The notes beneath the pieces were generated by a model. That model did no database searches. It saw only the letters and a list, made by a program, of their open reading frames with translations, and was not told the DNA's origin. Shown here piece by piece: positions 46,853 through 62,123 of a stretch of 64,000 nucleotides of DNA (position 1 is its first letter; the number at the start of each line of letters is the position of its first letter). The DNA comes from Parabacteroides chinchillae (GTDB lineage Bacteria > Bacteroidota > Bacteroidia > Bacteroidales > Tannerellaceae), in assembly GCF_900108035.1 (NCBI RefSeq), contig NZ_FNVS01000006.1, positions 62,001 through 126,000 of the forward strand. Direction: 5' to 3'. Both the position numbers and the translations under genes were made by a program.

Positions 46853-48154
46853 TTATCCGAACAAAATCTTAAACCTTGTGAGTCCATCGGAATATGTCCG
46901 CAAAGAGAATGTACAATTATGCTTTAAAAGTACCTCACGAATAAAAATAAGGCCGATACCCTGCCCGTTAGGTTTAGTAGAAAAGAATGGACTGAACAGT
47001 TTCGTTTCCGTCTCTTTGTCGATACCTTTACCGGTGTCGGCTATTTCCAGGCAAACCGGAGAGCCGGATGTAGTGATATAGATTTCACCATCTTGTTCTA
47101 TAGATTCGGCAGCATTTTTTATGATATTTACTAATACCTGTTCAAAAAGGGAAGGGTCTAAATCGGCAACCGGAGATACTTCCGATAACTCCATCCTGAT
47201 CCGTATATTACGATTCTGGCAGATCATTTCCATAAAACGCTTGCAATAACTAACTACTTCATTTAACTGTACCGGCTGTAACTGCGGCTCCGGTATACGC
47301 ACAACGTCCGCAAAATTGGTTATAAACCGGCTCATACTATAACAACGATCCATGGAAACCTGCAACACATCGCCGACTTCAGACATATTATCCATTCCGT
47401 CAATGGCAGACTGCAACGTATCCAATGTAGAGGTAATACCTGCAGTGGTATTATTCACTTCATGAGCTATCATACGAATCACCTTCTCATACGCTTTCTT
47501 TTCGGCCTTAAACACTTCCTGTGTAAGTGTTTCCACCAGATAGAACGGATGATGAAAGCCTCTGTCTACAAACGAAGAATGAGTACATTTATAAATATTA
47601 GCATCATTCAGCCGAACAGTTTGGGAATCATACAACGGAATTTGCAATAGCTCCGAAGCCAATGGGGTATCTATTTCCGACAACTTTTTTCCAACCAGCT
47701 CCAATGATGTGTATGCTCCAAATATCTTACATGCAGCCGGATTAACGGACAAAACTTCGCGATCCAAGTTTAATATGACAACGCCCATAGGCGAGGCATT
47801 GATCAATAAATCCAGAAAATGGTTTTGTTCGCGAAGATGCAGCCGTTCATTCTTTAATTGTTCCATCATCTTGTTGAAAACATCTACTACACGATCGGCT
47901 TCTGTCTGCCCTACACGGCTCAACCGTGAACTAAAGTCCTGCTCCTTCAATAATTCCATACCGTTTCCTATCGTGTGCAACGGCCTGATAATACGACGAT
48001 AGAAAACGAGCATGTATACAACAGTAAGGACAACCAAGCCTTCTACGAAGAAAAACATCGGTTTGGAATATGAGAAAAAGACAAAATAGGTCAGTATTGC
48101 CAATATAATCAGCAATAAAACAGTAAATACCCAAAATAGTCCTTTTACTCTCAT
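46853..48154 (-). CDS. PAS histidine kinase partner of the sigma54 activator
   Basis: The 433-residue membrane sensor has two N-terminal helices (about 6-28 and 34-51) with almost no periplasmic loop, a HAMP-like segment (54-105), a PAS domain (about 112-210; PMGVVILNLDREVLSVNPAACKIFG), the dimerisation helix with phospho-His231 in IAHEVNNTTAGI, and a HATPase with VNIIKNAAESI, IADTGKGID and GQGIGLIFIREV. The layout is that of NtrY/NtrB-type kinases, which signal to NtrC-type regulators. It follows the sigma54 activator gene by 13 bp, so they form a pair. The lack of a loop suggests it senses a membrane or cytoplasmic cue. Confidence 0.93.
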   Translation of the reverse strand: MRVKGLFWVFTVLLLIILAILTYFVFFSYSKPMFFFVEGLVVLTVVYMLVFYRRIIRPLHTIGNGMELLKEQDFSSRLSRVGQTEADRVVDVFNKMMEQLKNERLHLREQNHFLDLLINASPMGVVILNLDREVLSVNPAACKIFGAYTSLELVGKKLSEIDTPLASELLQIPLYDSQTVRLNDANIYKCTHSSFVDRGFHHPFYLVETLTQEVFKAEKKAYEKVIRMIAHEVNNTTAGITSTLDTLQSAIDGMDNMSEVGDVLQVSMDRCYSMSRFITNFADVVRIPEPQLQPVQLNEVVSYCKRFMEMICQNRNIRIRMELSEVSPVADLDPSLFEQVLVNIIKNAAESIEQDGEIYITTSGSPVCLEIADTGKGIDKETETKLFSPFFSTKPNGQGIGLIFIREVLLKHNCTFSLRTYSDGLTRFKILFG

Positions 48155-48167
48155 CCTATAATCTCAA

Positions 48168-49538
48168 CTATTTATCGACAGGAATATCATATTTTTCCAA
48201 CCGGCGATACAAAGCCGCCCTGCTAATACCCAAAGCAGTTGCCACATGAGAAAGATTGCCATTATGCGTTTCCAGTGCCTGAAGTATAGTTTGCTTTTCC
48301 AATTCATCCAGGGTAAGACCTTCAAAAGAAGTAGGGATAGAGCGCTTTGTTTCCATAACATTATGACATTGTCCTTCAAAATCGGACACATCTATAACAG
48401 ATTTACCCGACACCAGCATAGTACGTTCAACCAGATTTTTCAGTTCCCGGATATTACCCGGATAGGGCAAACGTTGTAAATAAGTCAAAGCTTCCGAAGA
48501 AAACCGCACATTAGCCAGACCATTCATCTCCGATTGTCTGTCTGCGAAATAACGGGCTAGCAAAGGTATATCTTCTCTGCGCTCACGTAAGGCAGGCAGA
48601 TGAACAGTAATCAAATTTATACGGTAAAACAGATCTTCTCTGAATGTACGTGCCGCCACCATTTCGGGAAGACTGCAATTAGTGGCGCTTACTACGCGGA
48701 TATCGACTTTCCGGGGACGGCTATCGCCCAATACTTCAAATGTCTGGTCTTGCAACACACGAAGCAACTTTACCTGGCAAGACAACTCCAGATCACCTAT
48801 TTCATCAAGAAATATCGTACCTTTGTTAGCCATCTCAAAACGTCCGGTGCGGTCAATATAGGCATCTGTAAAAGCCCCTTTCTTATGCCCGAACATTTCA
48901 CTTTCAAAAAGGCTTTGCGAAAGACCTCCCAAGTTCACTTTCACAAATGCTTCCTTAGCACGCGGACTATTGGCATGAATCGCTTCCGCTATCAGCTCTT
49001 TACCTGTACCGCTTTCCCCGGTAATCAATACCGATGCATTGGTAGGAGCTATACGTGAAACTGTTCCCAGCACATCCATCAAGGCAGTGCTTTGTCCTAT
49101 AATCTTATCAAAATGAAATTTATTATCAGCATCCGTACGGTTAAGAGGCTCCTTCTTCTCCGTTTTCTGTTCGCAAAGTTCCAAAGCCGTATTAATAGAT
49201 TTCAGAAGCACCAGGTTGTTCCACGGCTTCGTAATAAAATCGAATGCCCCAGCCTGCATTCCCTGTACGGCCAGTGAAATTGATCCCCAAGCCGTCATCA
49301 ATATTACAGGTACATCGGGGCGGAAAATTTTTACTTGCTTCAAGAGTTGTATGCCCTCCTCGCCTGTCGTAGTCATGGTAAAATTCATATCCATCAGTAT
49401 AAGCCGGGGAGCTGTTGCACGCACAATCGCCAAAGCCTCTTTTGGACCCGGCACAGCTTCCGTCTCGTAACCTGCACGTTTCAACAAAAAAGTCAGCGAG
49501 GAACGTACCACGGCGTCATCATCTATAATCAATATCAT
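48168..49538 (-). CDS. NtrC-family sigma54-dependent response regulator
   Basis: The 456-residue protein has a receiver (1-125, acidic pocket IDDD, phospho-Asp50 in LILMDMNF), an AAA+ domain (about 145-370) with Walker A GESGTGKE (174-181), the sigma54-contact loop GAFTDA (221-226), Walker B TIFLDEIGDL, the arginine-finger region FREDLFYRINLITVHLPALRERREDIPLL, and a C-terminal Fis-type HTH (NLSHVATALGISRAALYRRLEKY). It should activate RNA polymerase bound by RpoN. GAFTDA instead of GAFTGA is, as I recall, common in this phylum. It is followed by its kinase and lies next to tolC; two matching sigma54 promoters are found at tolC and the HlyD-type gene. Confidence 0.95.
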   Translation of the reverse strand: MILIIDDDAVVRSSLTFLLKRAGYETEAVPGPKEALAIVRATAPRLILMDMNFTMTTTGEEGIQLLKQVKIFRPDVPVILMTAWGSISLAVQGMQAGAFDFITKPWNNLVLLKSINTALELCEQKTEKKEPLNRTDADNKFHFDKIIGQSTALMDVLGTVSRIAPTNASVLITGESGTGKELIAEAIHANSPRAKEAFVKVNLGGLSQSLFESEMFGHKKGAFTDAYIDRTGRFEMANKGTIFLDEIGDLELSCQVKLLRVLQDQTFEVLGDSRPRKVDIRVVSATNCSLPEMVAARTFREDLFYRINLITVHLPALRERREDIPLLARYFADRQSEMNGLANVRFSSEALTYLQRLPYPGNIRELKNLVERTMLVSGKSVIDVSDFEGQCHNVMETKRSIPTSFEGLTLDELEKQTILQALETHNGNLSHVATALGISRAALYRRLEKYDIPVDK

Positions 49539-49668: not shown

Positions 49669-51156
49669 TTAACTCCTCTTTACGATTTCCTCAAAGTCTG
49701 CATCCAGATTATGCCTGTTAATAAAGTCGTACAACGTCATACTACGGATGTTGTAAAAGTAATACCAGTAGTTATACAGCTCCTGGATATGCTTCTGGCG
49801 CGCATTATCTTTTGAACTCTGCGCATCATTCAAATCGAGAATGTCTATCTTGCCGATCATAAAAGTCTCTATCGAAGTTTTATACCGTTTGCCGGCCAGT
49901 GTATCTACCTCTGCTGCTATTTCAAGCTGGGCAGCCTGGTTATTAAAGTTCTCAACCAATAAGAAGACATTCTGATTAAAATTCATCTGCTCCTGTCGCG
50001 TCTTAGATAAAACGACCTCGCGGTTAGACTCGGCTACTTTTACCTTTCCCTTCCGTTTTCCCCAGTCGAGAAGAGGAATAGTTACTCCAACTTCCACAAT
50101 CTGGTTATCTTTTAAATGGTTATAGGCAGCCCCCATCGTATGGTCTTTTCCTGTATATCCGATGGAAGCAAACAGGTTAATGCTACGGCGATTTCCTTTA
50201 GCTGTAGCTACATCATAGTCAGCCTCTAGCTGGCGACGAAGAATATTCTTTGCCAGAGAGTTATTTTCCTGAGCCTTTTCCAATACTTCATGATAATCCA
50301 TCCGCACGCCCGGCACAGTTTCGGGTACTACCGGAACCACTATATCTTGTTCGCTCAAAGCCAGAAAAGAACGAAGCTGGAACATATTTGCATTAAAACC
50401 GGATTGTGCTTCGGTAAGCAGTCCTTTTGCCTGCAAAGCCGATTGCTTCAAACGCATTAATTCGCTTTCCGAGATATGTCCTATCTTACGTTTCGCCACA
50501 GCAATATCATACAACTTATTGGCATTTTCAAGATTTTGCTGTGCTATATGCATATTCTCCTGGGCAAGCAAAAGACTAAAGAAGTTGTTAATCGTGGTAA
50601 GCGTAACTTTCTCTACGCTCTCAATATAAGATGCTTTTGCCTCCTGATAGCGCACAGGCTCGATACGACGTTTCCATTTTTGATCATTCACTCCGAAAAT
50701 AGGCTGGGTCAAGGTCAAACCAACCGGCACACTCATATATTCGTTATAAGCTCCGGTGCCTAGCTGGCGTGTAAAGTCCAGTGATGTATTCAATGATATC
50801 TTACCGCCTGTCAAGGCTATATTCTGTTCGATGGCAAGTTCTCCGGTCAATCCCAACGAATTATCCTGTACGTATGTATAAGCACCGTCCGATTGCTGAT
50901 ATTTACTATATTTCTTATTATAAGAAGGCAGCGTACCGGTAAACATTACTTCAGGAAGCTGGTCTGCACGGTGCGTACGATATTCCCAGTAAGCCGTACG
51001 CAACTCATTTAATGCAACAGCAGCATCAACAGACTGAATCTGGGCAATAGTAATAGCATCTTTCAACGTAAGCCTCACTATATGTGTATTATCTTCTGCC
51101 CGCAAACAAGCTATGTCAACCAGTAAGCAGGCAATAGCAATATAAACCTTTTTCAT
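49669..51156 (-). CDS. TolC-family outer-membrane channel
   Basis: TolC proteins form the outer-membrane exit duct of tripartite exporters. The start at ATG 51156 (495 residues) gives a signal peptide (MKKVYIAIACLLVDIACLRA-E); the upstream in-frame start lies in the promoter. The body consists of two repeats of long helices typical of OEP/TolC: VRLTLKDAITIAQIQSVDAAVALNELR, VTLTTINNFFSLLLAQENMHIAQQNLENAN and the second-repeat IDILDLNDAQSSKDNARQKHIQELYNYWYYFYNIRSM. A sigma54 promoter lies 29 bp upstream (51185-51199). Its partners are probably the HlyD/FtsX/ABC genes at 54.9-62.0 kb, which carry the same promoter type. Confidence 0.93.
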   Translation of the reverse strand: MKKVYIAIACLLVDIACLRAEDNTHIVRLTLKDAITIAQIQSVDAAVALNELRTAYWEYRTHRADQLPEVMFTGTLPSYNKKYSKYQQSDGAYTYVQDNSLGLTGELAIEQNIALTGGKISLNTSLDFTRQLGTGAYNEYMSVPVGLTLTQPIFGVNDQKWKRRIEPVRYQEAKASYIESVEKVTLTTINNFFSLLLAQENMHIAQQNLENANKLYDIAVAKRKIGHISESELMRLKQSALQAKGLLTEAQSGFNANMFQLRSFLALSEQDIVVPVVPETVPGVRMDYHEVLEKAQENNSLAKNILRRQLEADYDVATAKGNRRSINLFASIGYTGKDHTMGAAYNHLKDNQIVEVGVTIPLLDWGKRKGKVKVAESNREVVLSKTRQEQMNFNQNVFLLVENFNNQAAQLEIAAEVDTLAGKRYKTSIETFMIGKIDILDLNDAQSSKDNARQKHIQELYNYWYYFYNIRSMTLYDFINRHNLDADFEEIVKRS

Positions 51157-51184: not shown

Positions 51185-51199
51185 GCAAAAGCTATGCCA
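51185..51199 (-). promoter_or_regulatory. Sigma54 (-24/-12) promoter of tolC
   Basis: The minus strand reads TGGCATAGCTTTTGC, matching TGGCAnnnnnnTTGC with exact GG-GC spacing. Predicted transcription would start near 51173, 17 bp before the ATG at 51156. The same element with the same surroundings occurs at 62040-62054. Confidence 0.85.
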
Positions 51200-51243
51200 A
51201 AAACGTACCCTATTGATAATCTGAATTGTACTAATCAATGCAC

Positions 51244-51268
51244 TGTTCGGAAACGGACACTGTGTTCG
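51244..51268. promoter_or_regulatory. Upstream activator site for the tolC sigma54 promoter
   Basis: TGTTC-N6-GGACA followed by a third half site TGTTCG lies exactly 44 bp upstream of the -24 element. The copy at 62099-62123 is the perfect TGTTC-N6-GAACA form with the same third half site and spacing. It is the probable binding site of the NtrC-type regulator. Confidence 0.75.
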
Positions 51269-51270
51269 TT

Positions 51271-51300
51271 TTTGAAATCATCAGGAATTATATATCTTTG
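51271..51300 (+). promoter_or_regulatory. Housekeeping promoter of the lemA operon
   Basis: TTTG (51271-51274), 18-bp spacer, TATCTTTG (51293-51300), a full match to the Bacteroides consensus, 27 bp before the lemA ATG at 51328 and directly beside the activator site. Confidence 0.7.
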
Positions 51301-54890: not shown

Positions 54891-56150
54891 TTACTCATAG
54901 TGAAGCGCATCCGCCGGCTCCATCCGCGAAGCACAGCGCGAGGGATACCAGCAGGCGCCGATGATGATGAGCGCCAAGACAAGCAAAGTAAGTATACTTA
55001 CCACAGCGAAACGCCAGACCGAGACAGGCAGCACATCTACCGACAGGACTTCCATATAAGCTATATTACCGCAGATAAGAAGAGCCGGCAAGGATGCCAG
55101 AAACAAAAGCAGCAATCCTTCGTTTATCATTAAATGGCAAATACCGCGGTGGGTAGAGCCTACAGCCATACGCAACCCCAACTCTGCACGCCGCCGGTTC
55201 ACACGGAACCAGAAGGTTCCGATTACTGCAAGAAATACGTTAACAAGGAAGAAGCCGGAGATGACAGATAAAACCTTCTGCCCGCTCGATCCTAACGAGT
55301 ATTCCAGGAAAGAGGAACGTATTTCGGTATATGGCTCCACGTCGGACACCCAATAGTTGCCTGCCGTCAGCGAACGTTTCGTTTCTTTCATAAAGCGCTC
55401 GGCAAAACCGGACGGGCTTATTCCGGCACGGGTACGAAAGCAGATCTCCAATGAATTCATATCGTGTTCCTTCAGGTTCAACGTTTCCATGAACCGGTCG
55501 TCCAGCATTTCAAAAACCTGAACGTTGCCACTTGTTGCATACTCGTCGTTACGCAAGGGTTCGGACACGGCTACGATGGGGTAGCTTATCGAATCTGTCA
55601 CATAATAACGCTTGCCTACTACATCCGTCCGCCCGAACAACTCTTTTGCAGTAGTGGCAGATATTACCTTTCCTTCCGGTAGACGCCGGGCCAGTTCTTC
55701 CATGCTTCCTCCCGAAAGAAGGTGGATGCCGAACACCTTAAAATAGTCGGGGCTTACATTCAAATACCGTACATTAACATTTGTGGAATCGTGATGAATC
55801 TGGCTGGTCCAACAACCATAAGTATAGGGTAATGCTACGTAAGACATACAAACGGCCTCTACGTCGGGATGAGCCTTTATCCTCTCTATGATGCGATAGA
55901 CATTCTGCCGGGGTTCATCGCTTCCCGCTTCATATTTGATAAAAGACCGGGCGTTCTGCGGACGCACGGATATTGTTGCCCGGTATACATTTTCCACATT
56001 GAATCCCACCGGACGGCTAGCCAGTATGCCACGCATAAGGAAATAGTCGGTAGTAAACCATAACACAATAAACACGACCAGCAATTCGGCCAACACCCAG
56101 CAATTATTGTACAGGTTTGCCTTAATCAGTTTCAGTATATGTAGTATCAT
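54891..56150 (-). CDS. FtsX-like ABC transporter permease (fourth of the cluster)
   Basis: The 419-residue protein has the MacB/FtsX layout: one N-terminal helix (about 18-38), a large periplasmic domain (40-280, IHLLSGGSMEELARRLPEGKVI) and three C-terminal helices with FWFRVNRRRAELGLRMAVGSTHRGI before the second and a terminal WYPSRCASRMEPADALHYE. ELGLRMAVG and EPADALHYE are FtsX-family marks. It is the last gene of the leftward exporter operon, 20 bp after the previous permease. It probably couples ATP hydrolysis by the shared ATPase to export through the HlyD/TolC duct. Confidence 0.92.
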   Translation of the reverse strand: MILHILKLIKANLYNNCWVLAELLVVFIVLWFTTDYFLMRGILASRPVGFNVENVYRATISVRPQNARSFIKYEAGSDEPRQNVYRIIERIKAHPDVEAVCMSYVALPYTYGCWTSQIHHDSTNVNVRYLNVSPDYFKVFGIHLLSGGSMEELARRLPEGKVISATTAKELFGRTDVVGKRYYVTDSISYPIVAVSEPLRNDEYATSGNVQVFEMLDDRFMETLNLKEHDMNSLEICFRTRAGISPSGFAERFMKETKRSLTAGNYWVSDVEPYTEIRSSFLEYSLGSSGQKVLSVISGFFLVNVFLAVIGTFWFRVNRRRAELGLRMAVGSTHRGICHLMINEGLLLLFLASLPALLICGNIAYMEVLSVDVLPVSVWRFAVVSILTLLVLALIIIGACWYPSRCASRMEPADALHYE

Positions 56151-56170
56151 AAACAGTTCCTCCCCCGTTA

Positions 56171-57484
56171 TTAATTAGCTGTATTAGTCAGTGCGTCCGT
56201 TATGCTTACCTGCAAGGCACGGAAAGCAGGGACTATCGACGACAGCAGGTTCAACACCAGACAAATCATAAAAGCATAGCCAAACACCTGCATATTAATA
56301 AGCATCGGCAGGGAAAGGCTCATATCCATTGTTCCCCCGGACAGCATCATCGTAACGAACGACCCCAGCAATAATCCGCGTAATAACCAAACTAACAAAT
56401 AAGAGAATAACAGTCCGGCAAAGCCGCCCGGCAACATCAACAAGAGGTTCTCGGTGAGAAGCTGCATCAAGAGTGTACCTTTGCGGGCGCCAAATGCCCT
56501 GCGGACGCCTAATTCGGGAATGCGGTCGTGTATATGGAACGTGTTCAGCCCGGACAGATTCAACGCAGGGACCAACAGGAACAGCAGAAGGATGATGAGT
56601 AGCATGAAGAAGGTCTTTTTCCAGTCCTGCATAAACAACGAATAAAGCATGTTCTGAAAATAGAGAAGAGGCTCCGTTCCTTCCAATTGTCCGTCGACCA
56701 ACATTGTGTTGTATTGCTTTATCTGCCGTTGCCATTCATCGCGAAATGCTTTCATATCACCCGGGTTGCGCAACAATATACATACGCTAAACGGCCCTAT
56801 TGATGCTCTTTGCTCTATAGAGGAGAGTTCCGATAAGGCAGGCAGGCTACTGTATGGAACCCAAACATCGGCATAAGCATCCGGCGTAACGGCTGAGACA
56901 TCTGCCACCACCCCGCATACCGAATATTCAACATCATTGAGTAGAATCGTTTCGTTTACTACATCAGTCTTCCCAAATAGCATACGCGCAGTCTTCTCGT
57001 TCACAACAACACGTGAGAGGGAAGAAGAAACAGCCGCTTTATCAAACGGTTTGCCTGCCAGGAAACGATAGCGGAATATCTGCCAGAAACCATCGTCGGT
57101 TGCCATCAGGTTTACTTTAGGCGAAATATCCCCTCCCTGCAACCGGGCATAGCTATCACCTATGATATACCGCAAAGGCAGCGGATCAACCTTTATCGCA
57201 ACAGCTTCCGGCGTTGTCATCGGATATATGCATTCCTTTATTGTTCGTAAGCCGTAGCTATAGGAGCTCCGGCTCATATTACTTTGCACGTATGACAGGC
57301 CATTCAAATAACACATCCTGTCACGGTGTACCTCTGGCGCAATGTTGGCTGTACGGATATGGTAAACAACAGCCATGACCATAACCATGGATATAGCCAG
57401 TCCTGTTCCTATAATGTAAACAGTGCTGAAGAAACGGTTCCGTTCCATCAATTGCCAGGCTTGCCTGAAGTATAGTTTGTACAT
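56171..57484 (-). CDS. FtsX-like ABC transporter permease (third of the cluster)
   Basis: The 437-residue protein has an N-terminal helix (about 20-42; YIIGTGLAISMVMVMAVVY), a MacB-type periplasmic domain with MLFGKTDVVNETILLNDVEYSVCGVVADV, and three C-terminal helices with LSGLNTFHIHDRIPELGVRRAFGARKGTLL and the terminal FRALQVSITDALTN. It differs in its periplasmic part from its neighbours, and forms a pair with the 54891 gene. It is encoded 42 bp after the ATPase gene. The heterodimer with the next permease is inferred from family practice. Confidence 0.92.
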   Translation of the reverse strand: MYKLYFRQAWQLMERNRFFSTVYIIGTGLAISMVMVMAVVYHIRTANIAPEVHRDRMCYLNGLSYVQSNMSRSSYSYGLRTIKECIYPMTTPEAVAIKVDPLPLRYIIGDSYARLQGGDISPKVNLMATDDGFWQIFRYRFLAGKPFDKAAVSSSLSRVVVNEKTARMLFGKTDVVNETILLNDVEYSVCGVVADVSAVTPDAYADVWVPYSSLPALSELSSIEQRASIGPFSVCILLRNPGDMKAFRDEWQRQIKQYNTMLVDGQLEGTEPLLYFQNMLYSLFMQDWKKTFFMLLIILLLFLLVPALNLSGLNTFHIHDRIPELGVRRAFGARKGTLLMQLLTENLLLMLPGGFAGLLFSYLLVWLLRGLLLGSFVTMMLSGGTMDMSLSLPMLINMQVFGYAFMICLVLNLLSSIVPAFRALQVSITDALTNTAN

Positions 57485-57526: not shown

Positions 57527-58192
57527 TTACTGTACCTGGCGTCCGTCAAAGAAACGTATGGTTCTGGACGTCTGTTGCGCTTGTTGTTCGTTGTGGGTTA
57601 CCATCACAATGGTGCGGCCGTCTTCCTTATTGAGTTGGTGAAGCAATTCCATCACTTCGATACCCATCTTCGAGTCCAGGTTGCCGGTCGGTTCATCGGC
57701 AAGGATGATGTCGGGATTACCTACAATTGCACGGGCAATGGCCACACGCTGGCACTGACCGCCGGAGAGCTGTGTGGGAAAATGGCGTATGCGGTGCGAA
57801 AGGCCTACCTTTTCGAGTACTGCCTCAGCCGCTTTCCTGCGTTCCGAAGCGGACACTTTGCGGTAGAGAAGGGGAAGCTCCACATTATCGAGCACATTGA
57901 GCGAGTTGATAAGGTGGAACGACTGGAAGACAAAGCCCAGTTGCTTGTTGCGGAAAGCGGCCAGTTCCTTGTCGTTCATGTTAACCGTGTTCACTCCGTT
58001 GATCTCTACTGTTCCCGAAGTAGGCGCATCCAATAACCCCATAATGTTCAGTAACGTGGATTTACCGCACCCCGAAGGGCCCATGATAGATAGAAATTCG
58101 CCGTTGCGTACTTCAAGGTTCACATTTTCCAACGCTACCGTTTCTATCTCTTTTGTACGGTAGATCTTCTCGAGGTTTGTTAGCTTAATCAT
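57527..58192 (-). CDS. MacB/LolD-type ABC ATPase
   Basis: The 221-residue ATP-binding subunit has Walker A GPSGCGKST (38-46), the Q-loop FVFQSFHLIN, the signature LSGGQCQRVAIARAI, Walker B IILADEPTGNLD and the switch His in VMVTHNEQQAQ. It is of the MacB/LolD/FtsE branch that powers mechanotransmission permeases from the inner membrane. It is the only ATPase for four permeases in the cluster and lies between the two permease pairs, so it must serve both or the other pair uses an ATPase elsewhere. Confidence 0.95.
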   Translation of the reverse strand: MIKLTNLEKIYRTKEIETVALENVNLEVRNGEFLSIMGPSGCGKSTLLNIMGLLDAPTSGTVEINGVNTVNMNDKELAAFRNKQLGFVFQSFHLINSLNVLDNVELPLLYRKVSASERRKAAEAVLEKVGLSHRIRHFPTQLSGGQCQRVAIARAIVGNPDIILADEPTGNLDSKMGIEVMELLHQLNKEDGRTIVMVTHNEQQAQQTSRTIRFFDGRQVQ

Positions 58193-58224: not shown

Positions 58225-59496
58225 TTATTCATAATGTAACGCTTCCGCCGGTTCTATCTTTGCAATCCTGCGGGCAGGAAACCAGATACCGACAACGATC
58301 ATCAGTCCGAGCAACAGGAAAGTTCCTCCGAAAGTAACGGTAAACCGCCACCAGGTATAAGGCAGGCGCACCGTATCAGGCATATCGAAATAGAGCATAT
58401 TTATAATAAAGATCAACACCAATGGTGCAGTAAAAGCCAATAGTGAAATACCTTCTGCATACAGGAAACCTTCCAGGCGGCTACGGCTGGAACCGACAGC
58501 TACACGCAATCCCATCTCGCCCCGGCGATACTGCGTGCGGAGCCAGAAGGTGCCGATGATACCGAAGAATACATTCAGCAGCATGAAGCAAATCAGGATG
58601 ATCTTCTTCATCATCGCATCCCGTCTGTCTTTCAACATCGTATCCCGGAAGTTGCCCAATGGGGTGACACTCGACGCATAAAGGTTGTTTACTGTCAGGC
58701 GATCATCCATGCCTTGCAGGAAGTTCTCCATATCTTCCGCGCGGAATCCGTCTTTCATCCGGATCAGACATTCCATATTCTGTACCGGTATGTTATTGGC
58801 TTCTTCCACAACGTCCTGGTCTGTCCGCATCAGCAGGTAGAAACAGGGTTCGCTTCTTTCATACTCTGTCCGCCTTATCGGGTTGCACACGGCAGCGATG
58901 GTCATCGTTCCGGTGGACGTTGCACTCCATTTCAGTTTACGTCCCATGCCCGATTGCCCGTTATAGAGTTTCGTCTCCATATCTTTCGAGATAACAAGTT
59001 CTCCCCCATTCTGCTCGACGACTGCACGTAACGTTTTCCCGTCTTCTGATTTAATCCGGAAGACATCGAAGTAGGAAGGCGTCACCCTAAAGCACTGGAA
59101 CTGGTCTGTCACTTCCGTCGTATCGGTAGTTCCGGCTTGTGTGACTGACATCCAAGCGGTAGACCAGGTATACGGGCAGGCTGCATACGAGATACAAGCC
59201 TCATCCACCTGTGGAGCCTGACGGAGATTATCGACCAGCCGTACCAGGTCTTCTCCATCGGAAGTCTCCTTCAACGAATCAGGCACATACCCCGATGTCG
59301 AGGGATTCATCTTCCCCAGGTTCACCCGGTATACATTGCTTATATCGCGCCCCAAGGGAGAGTAATAAGTACAGACGTCCACCAGCAAGGAATCCATTAC
59401 ACTCCAAAGTATGGCCGCCACAACAAGCAGCTCGGCAAATATCCAGCCGTTACTACGGCGCTGGTTCCATATTATCTTAAGGGTATGTATAATCAT
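58225..59496 (-). CDS. FtsX-like ABC transporter permease (second of the cluster)
   Basis: The 423-residue MacB-type permease has an N-terminal helix (WIFAELLVVAAILWSVMDSLL), a periplasmic domain around 40-285, and C-terminal helices with FWLRTQYRRGEMGLRVAVGSSRSRLEGF and the terminal WFPARRIAKIEPAEALHYE, which are the same marks as in the 54891 gene, so these two are paralogues. Its start overlaps the first permease's stop by 4 bp (59493-59496), so these two are translated together. The ATPase gene follows after 32 bp. Confidence 0.92.
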   Translation of the reverse strand: MIIHTLKIIWNQRRSNGWIFAELLVVAAILWSVMDSLLVDVCTYYSPLGRDISNVYRVNLGKMNPSTSGYVPDSLKETSDGEDLVRLVDNLRQAPQVDEACISYAACPYTWSTAWMSVTQAGTTDTTEVTDQFQCFRVTPSYFDVFRIKSEDGKTLRAVVEQNGGELVISKDMETKLYNGQSGMGRKLKWSATSTGTMTIAAVCNPIRRTEYERSEPCFYLLMRTDQDVVEEANNIPVQNMECLIRMKDGFRAEDMENFLQGMDDRLTVNNLYASSVTPLGNFRDTMLKDRRDAMMKKIILICFMLLNVFFGIIGTFWLRTQYRRGEMGLRVAVGSSRSRLEGFLYAEGISLLAFTAPLVLIFIINMLYFDMPDTVRLPYTWWRFTVTFGGTFLLLGLMIVVGIWFPARRIAKIEPAEALHYE

Positions 59497-60758
59497 AATA
59501 CGTCATTGTCTTTTAAGGATGAAACGATTGGCTGGCGGGCAATGCGCGCTGCCGGTATGCCTGCCGAAAGCAAGTTGAGCAACAGGCTGAACAATAAAGC
59601 CACTACAAACACGGCCGGTTGAAAAAGCATATCGCCGTGCAATGCAGTATCGCTATCCTTCAGCAGAAACTCTTTACACAGTGGTAAGAATATGAATGAG
59701 CATGCCAGTCCGGTAAATCCACCGAGAAGTGTAATGAGGCAGTTCTCGTACAACACCTGCCGTAGCAGATTCCCTTTTGTTGCACCAAACGCTTTACGTA
59801 CTCCCATCTCCATACGGCGCTTCTGTACGGCCGAATGCGTAACGCCAAGCAGGTTCAACGCCGGGACGAGAAGCAGGAACAGCAACAAACCACCTGTTTC
59901 GGCCAAATAGTCTTTCAGCTCCACTGTCCGTTGTCCGATCGAGCCGATGGCTACATCGAACTGGCTGATCGGGTTGTTCAAAAAGTTGATCTCTGCCTCC
60001 TGCTTGGTTGCATTGTAAAGAGCGATATGCTTCTTCAGTTCTGCTTTGATGGGGTTGAAGTCGGCGCGTTTTTTAGCCAGCATACATACAGAGAACCATC
60101 CGGACATATTCTCCATAGAACTATTATTCATCAGGTTGATATCTGTTGTATAAGGTATCCAGACATCGCCATAGGCTGTATTAGCGGCACGGCTCACATC
60201 ATCCACTACGCCGCAGATGGTATATTCTTCCATATCTACCATCACCTGCTTGCCCACCACATCGGTCGTACCATATATTTTCCGGGCCGTCGAAGCAGAG
60301 AGTACCAACGCCGGTATAGCCGAATCCATATCGGCCTGCGTAAAGGGTTTACCGGCCAGGAAACGGAATGAAAATATCTTCCAGAAGCCCGGATCAGTGT
60401 AGGTAATGGCATACGCTTTATACATTCTCTTGCCGGGAACAGACAAAGGCTTTGCCCCCAGAGCATAAGCCGAGACGGCTTCGGGAAGTTGCAGCGAATA
60501 AAAACATTCCCTGACAGCCTCTACCGACATACCTCCACGACTCCATCCATTGCTGCTCCGCACCTCTGTTCCTTCATGTACGTAAAGCATACGGTCGCGG
60601 TCGTTCTCCGGGTAAAAGCTAGCGAACTGTATCTGAAACACCAACACAACAATCATAATCATCGCTATCGAAATAGCTGTCCCGGCTATGGAGATCACGG
60701 TAACGAGCCGGTTCTCCTGTAACATCTGAAAAGCCTGTTTCAAGTATTGTTTAATCAT
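59493..60758 (-). CDS. FtsX-like ABC transporter permease (first of the cluster)
   Basis: The 421-residue MacB-type permease has an N-terminal helix (VISIAGTAISIAMIMIVVLVF), a periplasmic domain with STARKIYGTTDVVGKQVMVDMEEYTICGVVDDVSRA, and three C-terminal helices with LLGVTHSAVQKRRMEMGVRKAFGATKGNLLRQV and a terminal IPAARIARQPIVSSLKDND. It is a paralogue of the 56171 permease; both have the LNLLGVTHS/LNLSGLNTF helix region. It begins one base after the HlyD-type gene ends. Together the four permeases look like a duplication of a permease pair on either side of the ATPase. Confidence 0.92.
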   Translation of the reverse strand: MIKQYLKQAFQMLQENRLVTVISIAGTAISIAMIMIVVLVFQIQFASFYPENDRDRMLYVHEGTEVRSSNGWSRGGMSVEAVRECFYSLQLPEAVSAYALGAKPLSVPGKRMYKAYAITYTDPGFWKIFSFRFLAGKPFTQADMDSAIPALVLSASTARKIYGTTDVVGKQVMVDMEEYTICGVVDDVSRAANTAYGDVWIPYTTDINLMNNSSMENMSGWFSVCMLAKKRADFNPIKAELKKHIALYNATKQEAEINFLNNPISQFDVAIGSIGQRTVELKDYLAETGGLLLFLLLVPALNLLGVTHSAVQKRRMEMGVRKAFGATKGNLLRQVLYENCLITLLGGFTGLACSFIFLPLCKEFLLKDSDTALHGDMLFQPAVFVVALLFSLLLNLLSAGIPAARIARQPIVSSLKDNDVL

Positions 60759-60759
60759 A

Positions 60760-62004
60760 TTACTTTAGTTTCAGTTTGTTTTTGTCTTTATAAGATGCCA
60801 TATCGGAGACAACCACCTCATCTCCTTCCTGCAAACCACTTACCACTTCCACATATTCAAAGTTGCTGTCGCCTAGTTGTACTTTACGCTTCAACAACCG
60901 GTCTCCATGTACAACGAAAAGCTCATATTCGCCCTTACCAACATAATACGAAGCATTGGCAATGCGCATCACATCTTCCTTTACGGCATTCATCACATAT
61001 ACGTCGGTCTTTAAACCTGAACGCAGGCGTTTATGATTATCTTGCAGCAACTGCACGGTGAAGGAGATAACGCCATTCTTCGACAAAGGAGTAACATCGC
61101 TTACGGTGCCTTCCAGCTTTTCATTCCCAATCTTGACAACGGCTTTGCTTCCGGCCGCAATGCGGTCGCCATAGGTATCGGCTATCTCGCCCTCTATCTT
61201 GAAATGAGACAGATCGGAAACAATCGCCACTTTTGTACCTTGCCCCACTTGTGCGCCAACTTCGTTGTTTACATAAGTCAGGATCGCTTTGCGGGGCGAA
61301 CGGATTCGGGCATCTTCCAAAGTCCGTTTCGTTTCGGCCAGGCCTTTACGGAATATATTAAGTTCCAGTTCTTTTACTTTCAGGTCGGCTTCGGCAAGTG
61401 CTTTCTCGTTCTCGTATTTCTGTTCGTCTTCTTTCAACTGAAGCTGGCTGACGTTATAGTCGAGTTCTGCCTGGCGAACTTTATCGGTCGTACCGGCTCC
61501 CAGGCTGTCAAGATAACGCTCGTTACGAAGCTCCACTTCTTTGCGGTTTAACGTCATACGCGACACTTTAAGCTTCATATCCATTTCGGAGAGTTTATTG
61601 CGATTGGTAACTTTGAGTTGTTCCAGTTGAAGACGTTTCATCTGCTCTTCATCCAGTAATTTATTATAGTCGGTCTCTGCACTCTGTAAATCCAACTTAA
61701 GGATAGGCGTACCTACATCTACAGAATCTCCCCCCTTTTTATATATCTCTACAATACGGGAATTAATCGGCGAGTTTATTATTTCCTCAAAAGCGGGAAC
61801 CACCTTGCCGGAAGCACTTACCGAGACTTCAATCATACCTTTATCCACTTTGGATAAATTTATATCTTTCCGGTTCAGGCTAGTCTGCATATAAGCAATG
61901 ACACTCCCAACAGCCACGCAAACAATCAGCACAATCCCGCCAACCTTGATAAACTGCTTACGTTGTTCCTTCTTTTGTACTTCTTTTGAAATCTCCCTGT
62001 CCAT
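60760..62004 (-). CDS. HlyD/MacA-type periplasmic adaptor
   Basis: The 414-residue adaptor joins the inner-membrane transporter to a TolC-like channel. It has a cytoplasmic tail, one membrane anchor (about 20-42, VGGIVLIVCVAVGSVIAYM), a biotinyl/lipoyl-like half (GMIEVSVSASGKVVPAFEEIINSPINSRIVEIYKKGGDSVDVGTPILKL), a long alpha-hairpin (about 105-230, LQSAETDYNKLLDEEQMKRLQLEQL), and beta domains ending VVSGLQEGDEVVVSDM. These are the MacA/HlyD features. A sigma54 promoter lies 36 bp upstream (62040-62054). It heads the leftward six-gene transporter operon. Confidence 0.94.
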   Translation of the reverse strand: MDREISKEVQKKEQRKQFIKVGGIVLIVCVAVGSVIAYMQTSLNRKDINLSKVDKGMIEVSVSASGKVVPAFEEIINSPINSRIVEIYKKGGDSVDVGTPILKLDLQSAETDYNKLLDEEQMKRLQLEQLKVTNRNKLSEMDMKLKVSRMTLNRKEVELRNERYLDSLGAGTTDKVRQAELDYNVSQLQLKEDEQKYENEKALAEADLKVKELELNIFRKGLAETKRTLEDARIRSPRKAILTYVNNEVGAQVGQGTKVAIVSDLSHFKIEGEIADTYGDRIAAGSKAVVKIGNEKLEGTVSDVTPLSKNGVISFTVQLLQDNHKRLRSGLKTDVYVMNAVKEDVMRIANASYYVGKGEYELFVVHGDRLLKRKVQLGDSNFEYVEVVSGLQEGDEVVVSDMASYKDKNKLKLK

Positions 62005-62039: not shown

Positions 62040-62054
62040 GCAAACTTTGTGCCA
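62040..62054 (-). promoter_or_regulatory. Sigma54 (-24/-12) promoter of the exporter operon
   Basis: The minus strand reads TGGCACAAAGTTTGC, an essentially perfect -24/-12 element (TGGCAC and TTGC with proper spacing). Predicted transcription would start near 62028, 24 bp before the HlyD-type ATG at 62004. Confidence 0.88.
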
Positions 62055-62098
62055 AAAGCGTAACCAACTGATAGTGTGATACCAGTAGAACTGCTAAG

Positions 62099-62123
62099 TG
62101 TTCAATATCGAACAGTGTGTTCG
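62099..62123. promoter_or_regulatory. Upstream activator site for the exporter operon
   Basis: Perfect inverted repeat TGTTC-AATATC-GAACA plus a third half site TGTTCG, exactly 44 bp upstream of the -24 box, as in the copy at tolC (51244-51268). Confidence 0.8.

Follow-up and report, generated by a model that had tools for sequence, protein, structure and literature searches.

In IHF-assisted sigma-54 promoters, e.g., nifH and glnHp2, an IHF site is situated between the UAS and the -24/-12 element. BceRS-BceAB systems sense peptides by means of intramembrane-sensing kinases. Where transcription in gut Bacteroidales is treated in a 2025 review and in PMC7366714, the factors considered are sigma-ABfr and ECF factors; RpoN is absent from the main text of this review and of two B. 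thetaiotaomicron transcriptome papers, one of them PMC7366714. For an RpoN regulon in Bacteroides, only PMC12316311 was found in the open-licence literature, and no description of an activator, enhancer or regulon was found there. By statistical means, this paper from 2025 predicts sigma-54 control of COG0577 (FtsX-type) ABC permeases in Bacteroidia, which it calls the first such evidence. Descriptions of a defined sigma-54 control circuit in Bacteroidota are thus far rare, if there are any. The original prediction for the locus presented here, which regarded a specific sigma-54 regulon as rarely described in this phylum, is fair in general, but control of FtsX-type permeases had already been predicted in Bacteroidia in the passages of PMC12316311 concerned.

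Two Predicted Sigma-54 Promoter Modules

The window, i.e., the complete analysed stretch of 64,000 nucleotides, contains two modules of 84 bp each, which are 11 kb apart and comprise the following features, listed together with a neighbouring promoter.

51268-51185, minus strand: module 1, CGAACACAGTGTCCGTTTCCGAACA-N44-TGGCATAGCTTTTGC, before tolC
51263..51268, minus strand: putative third activator half-site CGAACA of module 1
51244..51259, minus strand: putative activator dyad (core UAS) TGTCCGTTTCCGAACA, TGTYC-N6-GRACA
51206..51218, minus strand: IHF-like element TATCAATAGGGTA, WATCARNNNNTTR with 1 mismatch
51185..51199, minus strand: predicted -24/-12 sigma-54 promoter of tolC, TGGCATAGCTTTTGC, GG-N10-GC, ~29 nt 5' of the ATG
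51271..51300, plus strand: divergent Bacteroides-type promoter of lemA, predicted from the sequence (TTTG at 51271-51274, TATCTTTG at 51293-51300)
62123-62040, minus strand: module 2, CGAACACACTGTTCGATATTGAACA-N44-TGGCACAAAGTTTGC, before hlyD
62118..62123, minus strand: putative third activator half-site CGAACA of module 2
62099..62114, minus strand: putative activator dyad TGTTCGATATTGAACA
62061..62073, minus strand: IHF-like element TATCAGTTGGTTA, exact WATCARNNNNTTR
62040..62054, minus strand: predicted -24/-12 sigma-54 promoter of hlyD, TGGCACAAAGTTTGC, ~36 nt 5' of the ATG

The correctly spaced -24/-12 promoter that had been proposed on the minus strand at 51185-51199 is right in sequence and coordinates, and the dyad with a third half-site 44 bp upstream of it was found as described. 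Its proposed repetition at 62040-62123 in the same order and spacing holds as well, with N44 in both modules and 52 of 84 positions identical in a gapless alignment. Both promoters show TGGCAY-N5-TTGC with GG-N10-GC, and RpoN is encoded in the genome (PF04552, E 6e-53). Since the IHF-like element occurs in both modules, each represents a putative unit of enhancer, bending site and -24/-12 promoter.

The predicted lemA promoter reads TTTG-N18-TATCTTTG, the published Bacteroides-type consensus being TTTG / TAnnTTTG (PMC7366714). Its -33 TTTG abuts the third half-site of module 1 (window 51263-51300), and thus activator binding might also affect lemA-DUF3137.

Half-Sites, Genomic Rarity and Conserved Spacing

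For 127 module sites, the consensus of the UAS is CGRACA-N3-TGTYCG-N4-CGRACA. The dyad TGTYC-N6-GRACA, the putative cognate UAS, is present in 120 of them, and in case of the third half-site (consensus CGRACA-N3-TGTYCG) a G is found at -19 in 112/127 sites. TTGC of the -12 element is invariant in the sequence logo.

A genome-wide search for the pair of UAS and promoter, as suggested along with the original prediction, returned the two window modules only: the pattern GAACA-N30-60-TGGCAYN5TTGC has two matches in the 3.57-Mb genome (control 0). The triple half-site CGAACACASTGTYCG with at most one mismatch is likewise restricted to these two places, the reversed-pattern control giving 3. TGGCAYN5TTGC alone is unspecific, with 24 matches in the genome versus 10 in the reversed control, and hence it is the pairing with GAACA that carries the weight.

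Relatives were compared in a family set of 120 genomes, termed Tannerellaceae-like because the regulator orthologues span Parabacteroides, Tannerella-type genomes, Bacteroides, and Phocaeicola. In this set, the GAACA-to-TGGCA gap pattern matches 143 times. Gaps of N44 and N45 occur in 37 matches each, compared to 2.3 per other length, which amounts to 74 matches versus approximately 5 (4.6) expected and is far more than chance would give. The module has been conserved in Parabacteroides, Tannerella, Bacteroides, and Phocaeicola and is situated upstream of the same transporter genes across two families. Among 29 loci identified by the pattern only, 14 of the 19 with a gap of 43-45 have hlyD, tolC or a permease gene of the exporter system immediately downstream, in contrast to none of the 10 with other gaps. 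Of 105 distinct N43-46 sites, a set that includes loci chosen around the regulator and is partly biased by this choice, 97 precede tolC (44), hlyD (34), the ATPase (12), or a permease (7). In larger genomes, the genes behind unlinked modules are hlyD or permease genes belonging to this exporter system.

Regulator, Kinase and Exporter Genes

The genes associated with both modules are listed below.

46853..48154, minus strand: histidine kinase (PF02518, PAS, HAMP) with two TM helices, HAMP, PAS, HATPase and almost no periplasmic loop; the HAMP and PAS_9 matches fall just below cut-off
48168..49538, minus strand: NtrC-type response regulator, presumed cognate activator (PF00072, PF00158 E 7e-66, PF02954)
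49669..51156, minus strand: tolC-like outer-membrane efflux protein, first gene of the module 1 operon (PF02321 E 1e-38)
54891..57484, minus strand: second pair of FtsX-type ABC permeases (ORFs; linkage conserved in relatives)
57527..58192, minus strand: stand-alone ABC ATPase of LolD/MacB type (PF00005; TIGR02211 and NF038007 below cut-off)
58225..60758, minus strand: two MacB/FtsX-type ABC permeases, the first (60758-59493) with PF12704 and PF02687, the second (59496-58225) assigned by similarity and ORF
60760..62004, minus strand: HlyD/MacA-type periplasmic adaptor, first gene of the module 2 operon (PF13437, PF16576)

An NtrC-type activator and its kinase had been placed next door in the original prediction, and the profile matches bear this out with a REC, a sigma-54 AAA+ and a Fis-type HTH domain in the regulator and a histidine kinase beside it. 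By pattern, Walker A is present in 127 and Walker B in 132 of 133 regulator orthologues, and the receiver motifs are conserved in nearly all of them. The loop contacting sigma-54 reads GAFTDA instead of GAFTGA in 127/133 orthologues, as it does in a second activator of the genome. The best NCBIfam scores were obtained for AtoC, NtrC, and NtrX, all under their cut-offs; an assignment to NtrC proper (nitrogen regulation) is not reached with 370.9 versus 558.6 bits for TIGR01818. The closest solved structures are 4l4u (NtrC family), 5m7n (listed as nitrogen assimilation regulatory protein), and 1ny5, and the nearest named relative is from Parabacteroides bouchesdurhonensis (93%). Judged from the N-terminal sequences in the window and in relatives, the two TM helices of the kinase are separated by about 5 residues, which fits the intramembrane-sensing type.

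Adaptor, MacB/FtsX permease and TolC-family channel are encoded together, as is characteristic of the MacAB-TolC gene content. The MacB equivalog, a fused ATPase-permease, was not found in the window, where the ATPase is separate and NF007826 scores 66.8 and 227.1 versus 966 bits. Likewise, the cut-offs for the darobactin exporter (DarCD) were not reached (NF038010 74.7 versus 450; NF038007 255.9 versus 375).

Of the 74 genomes that encode a regulator orthologue, 44 carry the module, compared to 4 of the 46 that do not (Fisher p 1.1e-8, uncorrected for phylogeny). The remaining 30 orthologue-bearing genomes lack an exact pattern match, and many of them have GGACA or -12 variants; a few tolC genes in the relatives' loci are devoid of any module. 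Exceptions with a module and without the regulator comprise a locus with only regulator fragments (L243), a genome that is 76% complete, and the genome G024. In case of a further exception, L242 (5300-6700), an internal deletion has removed the regulator gene and joined the start of tolC directly to the end of the kinase gene. This decayed tolC-regulator-kinase operon keeps its promoter module intact.

An IHF-Like Element between Enhancer and Promoter

A conserved WATCAR-N4-TTR block, overlooked in the original prediction, is located at -19 to -7 from TGGCA. Considering 109 non-redundant sites (spacers less than 70% identical to one another), WATCARNNNNTTR occurs at this fixed register with at most one mismatch in 72 and exactly in 30, whereas at each of the other 25 offsets only 0-3 sites match with at most one mismatch. 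Apart from tolerating G as well at its sixth base, the block agrees with the IHF consensus WATCAANNNNTTR given in PMC3281130; IHF of Bacteroidota is poorly defined. The genome contains 15 matches to the HU/IHF family, none of which is assigned as IHF. In other families of the order, the strict combination of IHF and -24/-12 pattern is nearly absent (4 of 295 genomes).

Variant Architectures and Other Sigma-54 Circuits

In some Bacteroides (B. clarus, B. cellulosilyticus type), a gap of N31 is found together with two complete dyads and no IHF-like element. The putative bending element is therefore not universal, and a change in spacing seems to go along with its presence or absence. Such tolC upstream regions occur in L176-L181, L183, L186, L190, L195, L196, L203, L209-L211, and L216 (all Bacteroides), with three or four half-sites, which form at most two dyads, before TGGCAY and a gap 13 bp shorter than N44.

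A sister system (L251-L255), apparently absent from the window's genome, has a regulator of 61-65% identity in an ATPase-permease-permease-regulator-kinase operon of its own, presumably autoregulated, which shares the layout of the window modules and is preceded by a related UAS (GGACA...TGTCCG...TTCGGACA-N44). The common layout indicates that the architecture was inherited by at least two paralogous circuits. Probable sigma-54 promoters of another kind, TGGCAY-N5-TTTGC with a different, TGTCCAAT-type upstream repeat, are present in L046 (own genome, C19:9993), L047, and L058. In L046, a second TolC-like gene and the gene of a second NtrC-type regulator, again with GAFTDA, are oriented divergently. 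Due to these different repeats, several separate sigma-54 circuits with different enhancers probably coexist. A clear IHF-like match is missing at the genome's other sigma-54 promoters.

Upstream of tolC or ATPase genes in L175, L188, L189, L202, L208, and L233 (Bacteroides/Phocaeicola), the dyad is extended into a longer palindrome with co-varying arms (AGAGTG..CACTCT, AGGGTG..CACCCT, TTGCAAGTG..CACTTGCAA), often with a T run on its 3' side. It resembles an intrinsic terminator of the upstream gene that shares bases with the putative activator site. Arm positions 3 and 4 are paired in a fraction of 0.67, compared to 0.39-0.44 after permutation. For the clade of the window modules, a shared-terminator hairpin was rejected due to the lack of covariation in the Tannerellaceae.

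Proposed Mechanism and Alternative Explanations

As far as sequence comparison can tell, the regulatory module is real and conserved, and both modules very probably represent sigma-54 promoters of enhancer type that belong to a single autoregulated regulon for envelope export. The idea of a specific sigma-54 regulon under the adjacent NtrC-type regulator agrees with all comparative tests and gains support from RpoN, the domains, the co-occurrence and the conserved targets. Points against it are the GAFTDA loop, although this is found throughout the lineage, the orthologue-bearing genomes and tolC genes lacking the pattern, the N31 gap of some Bacteroides, and the near absence of the strict IHF plus -24/-12 pattern from other families of the order. 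To the observed architecture, its conservation, the target genes, the linkage to the regulator and the presence of rpoN and HU/IHF genes, we add an inferred chain of phosphorylation, binding, bending, RpoN dependence and pump assembly. The membrane kinase (46853-48154) would sense a signal within or at the inner membrane and phosphorylate the regulator (48168-49538), which would then bind the triple half-site CGRACA-N3-TGTYCG-N4-CGRACA. An IHF/HU-family protein would bend the DNA at WATCARNNNNTTR, such that the AAA+ hexamer could meet RpoN-RNA polymerase waiting at TGGCAY-N5-TTGC, and ATP hydrolysis by the AAA+ ring would open the promoter. As a result, tolC, regulator and kinase genes would be induced in a positive feedback, together with hlyD, the FtsX-type permeases and the ATPase, and the products may form a MacAB-TolC-like tripartite exporter.

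Alternatively, the modules might be sigma-54 promoters that are mainly served by a different NtrC-type activator, the neighbouring one being incidental. The genome indeed encodes eight proteins matching the window regulator at E <= 1e-60, but adjacency and co-occurrence track specifically the orthologues of this regulator, the promoters of L046, L047, and L058 carry the different TGTCCAAT-type repeat, L046 adjoins another activator, and the operon of the sister regulator has its own variant site, so that this alternative is improbable. Ordinary repressor sites or sites of the divergent genes (lemA, PepSY), combined with chance -24/-12 matches, are a highly improbable explanation of the dyads. 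The third half-site abutting the -33 TTTG of the lemA promoter and the 24 genomic occurrences of TGGCAYN5TTGC would be in agreement with it; however, dyad and -24/-12 spacing are kept beside other divergent genes or none at all, as in ATPase- and permease-linked modules, and an invariant TTGC with a fixed gap is unexpected by chance. That the likeness of the modules merely reflects a recent duplication of the upstream region without functional constraint is extremely improbable: although the copies are only 11 kb apart and have 52 of 84 bases in common, only functional columns are shared, and the same columns are kept in genomes with spacers less than 70% identical as well as in the sister system.

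The identity of WATCARNNNNTTR is a separate issue, compatible with the remaining parts of the enhancer-type sigma-54 reading. Its position at -19 to -7 from TGGCA, close to the polymerase, and the poor definition of IHF in Bacteroidota leave room for a role other than IHF/HU binding, either as an extension of the sigma-54 promoter or as the target of a different protein, which we consider doubtful but by no means far-fetched. It matches the published consensus WATCAANNNNTTR apart from the G allowed at the sixth base, occupies the place between enhancer and promoter known from classical sigma-54 promoters with IHF assistance, and is missing both where the gap is N31 and, as a clear match, at the other sigma-54 promoters of the genome, all of which argues for a bending site.

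Beyond the autoregulated export regulon, one may imagine an RpoN regulon, the first defined in Bacteroidota, with a compact unit of enhancer, bending site and promoter, whose intramembrane-sensing kinase would monitor an FtsX-type exporter and whose regulator would govern that same pump, the dyad in Bacteroides being also part of an intrinsic terminator hairpin; as a whole, we regard this as possible, if rather doubtful. The analysis provides a complete predictive sigma-54 module with activator, half-site, spacing, bending element and targets, by which RpoN function in dominant gut commensals becomes testable. It also suggests how gut bacteria may induce an exporter upon envelope or antimicrobial-peptide stress.

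Comparison with Known Systems

The statistical prediction in PMC12316311 corresponds to the window modules in promoter class, permease family and the bacterial class concerned; its passages on this prediction do not name the activator, the enhancer, tolC, hlyD or the bending site described here. With NtrC-, NtrX- and AtoC-type activators, the window regulator shares the REC-AAA+-Fis architecture and a dyad UAS upstream of -24/-12, but differs by its GAFTDA loop and the half-site CGRACA, and compared to NtrC and AtoC its predicted target is an ABC exporter rather than nitrogen or acetoacetate metabolism. Similar to MacAB-TolC and FtsX-type (type VII) ABC systems, the window encodes a HlyD/MacA-type adaptor, MacB_PCD/FtsX permeases and a TolC-family protein. 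In contrast to MacAB-TolC, it has a separate ATPase gene and several different permeases, and the MacA/MacB equivalog cut-offs are not reached. By analogy, the coupling of a two-TM kinase with a minimal loop to FtsX-type permeases resembles BceRS-BceAB, which would suggest sensing through the transporter, although the window combines a predicted sigma-54 activator as regulator with a presumably tripartite pump. The order of UAS, IHF consensus and -24/-12 is the same as in nifH and glnHp2, whereas the window modules are much tighter (UAS 44 bp from -24), the host belongs to the Bacteroidota and the bending protein is putative. The kind of mechanism is known; it is newly resolved in Bacteroidota, and unusually well for this phylum.
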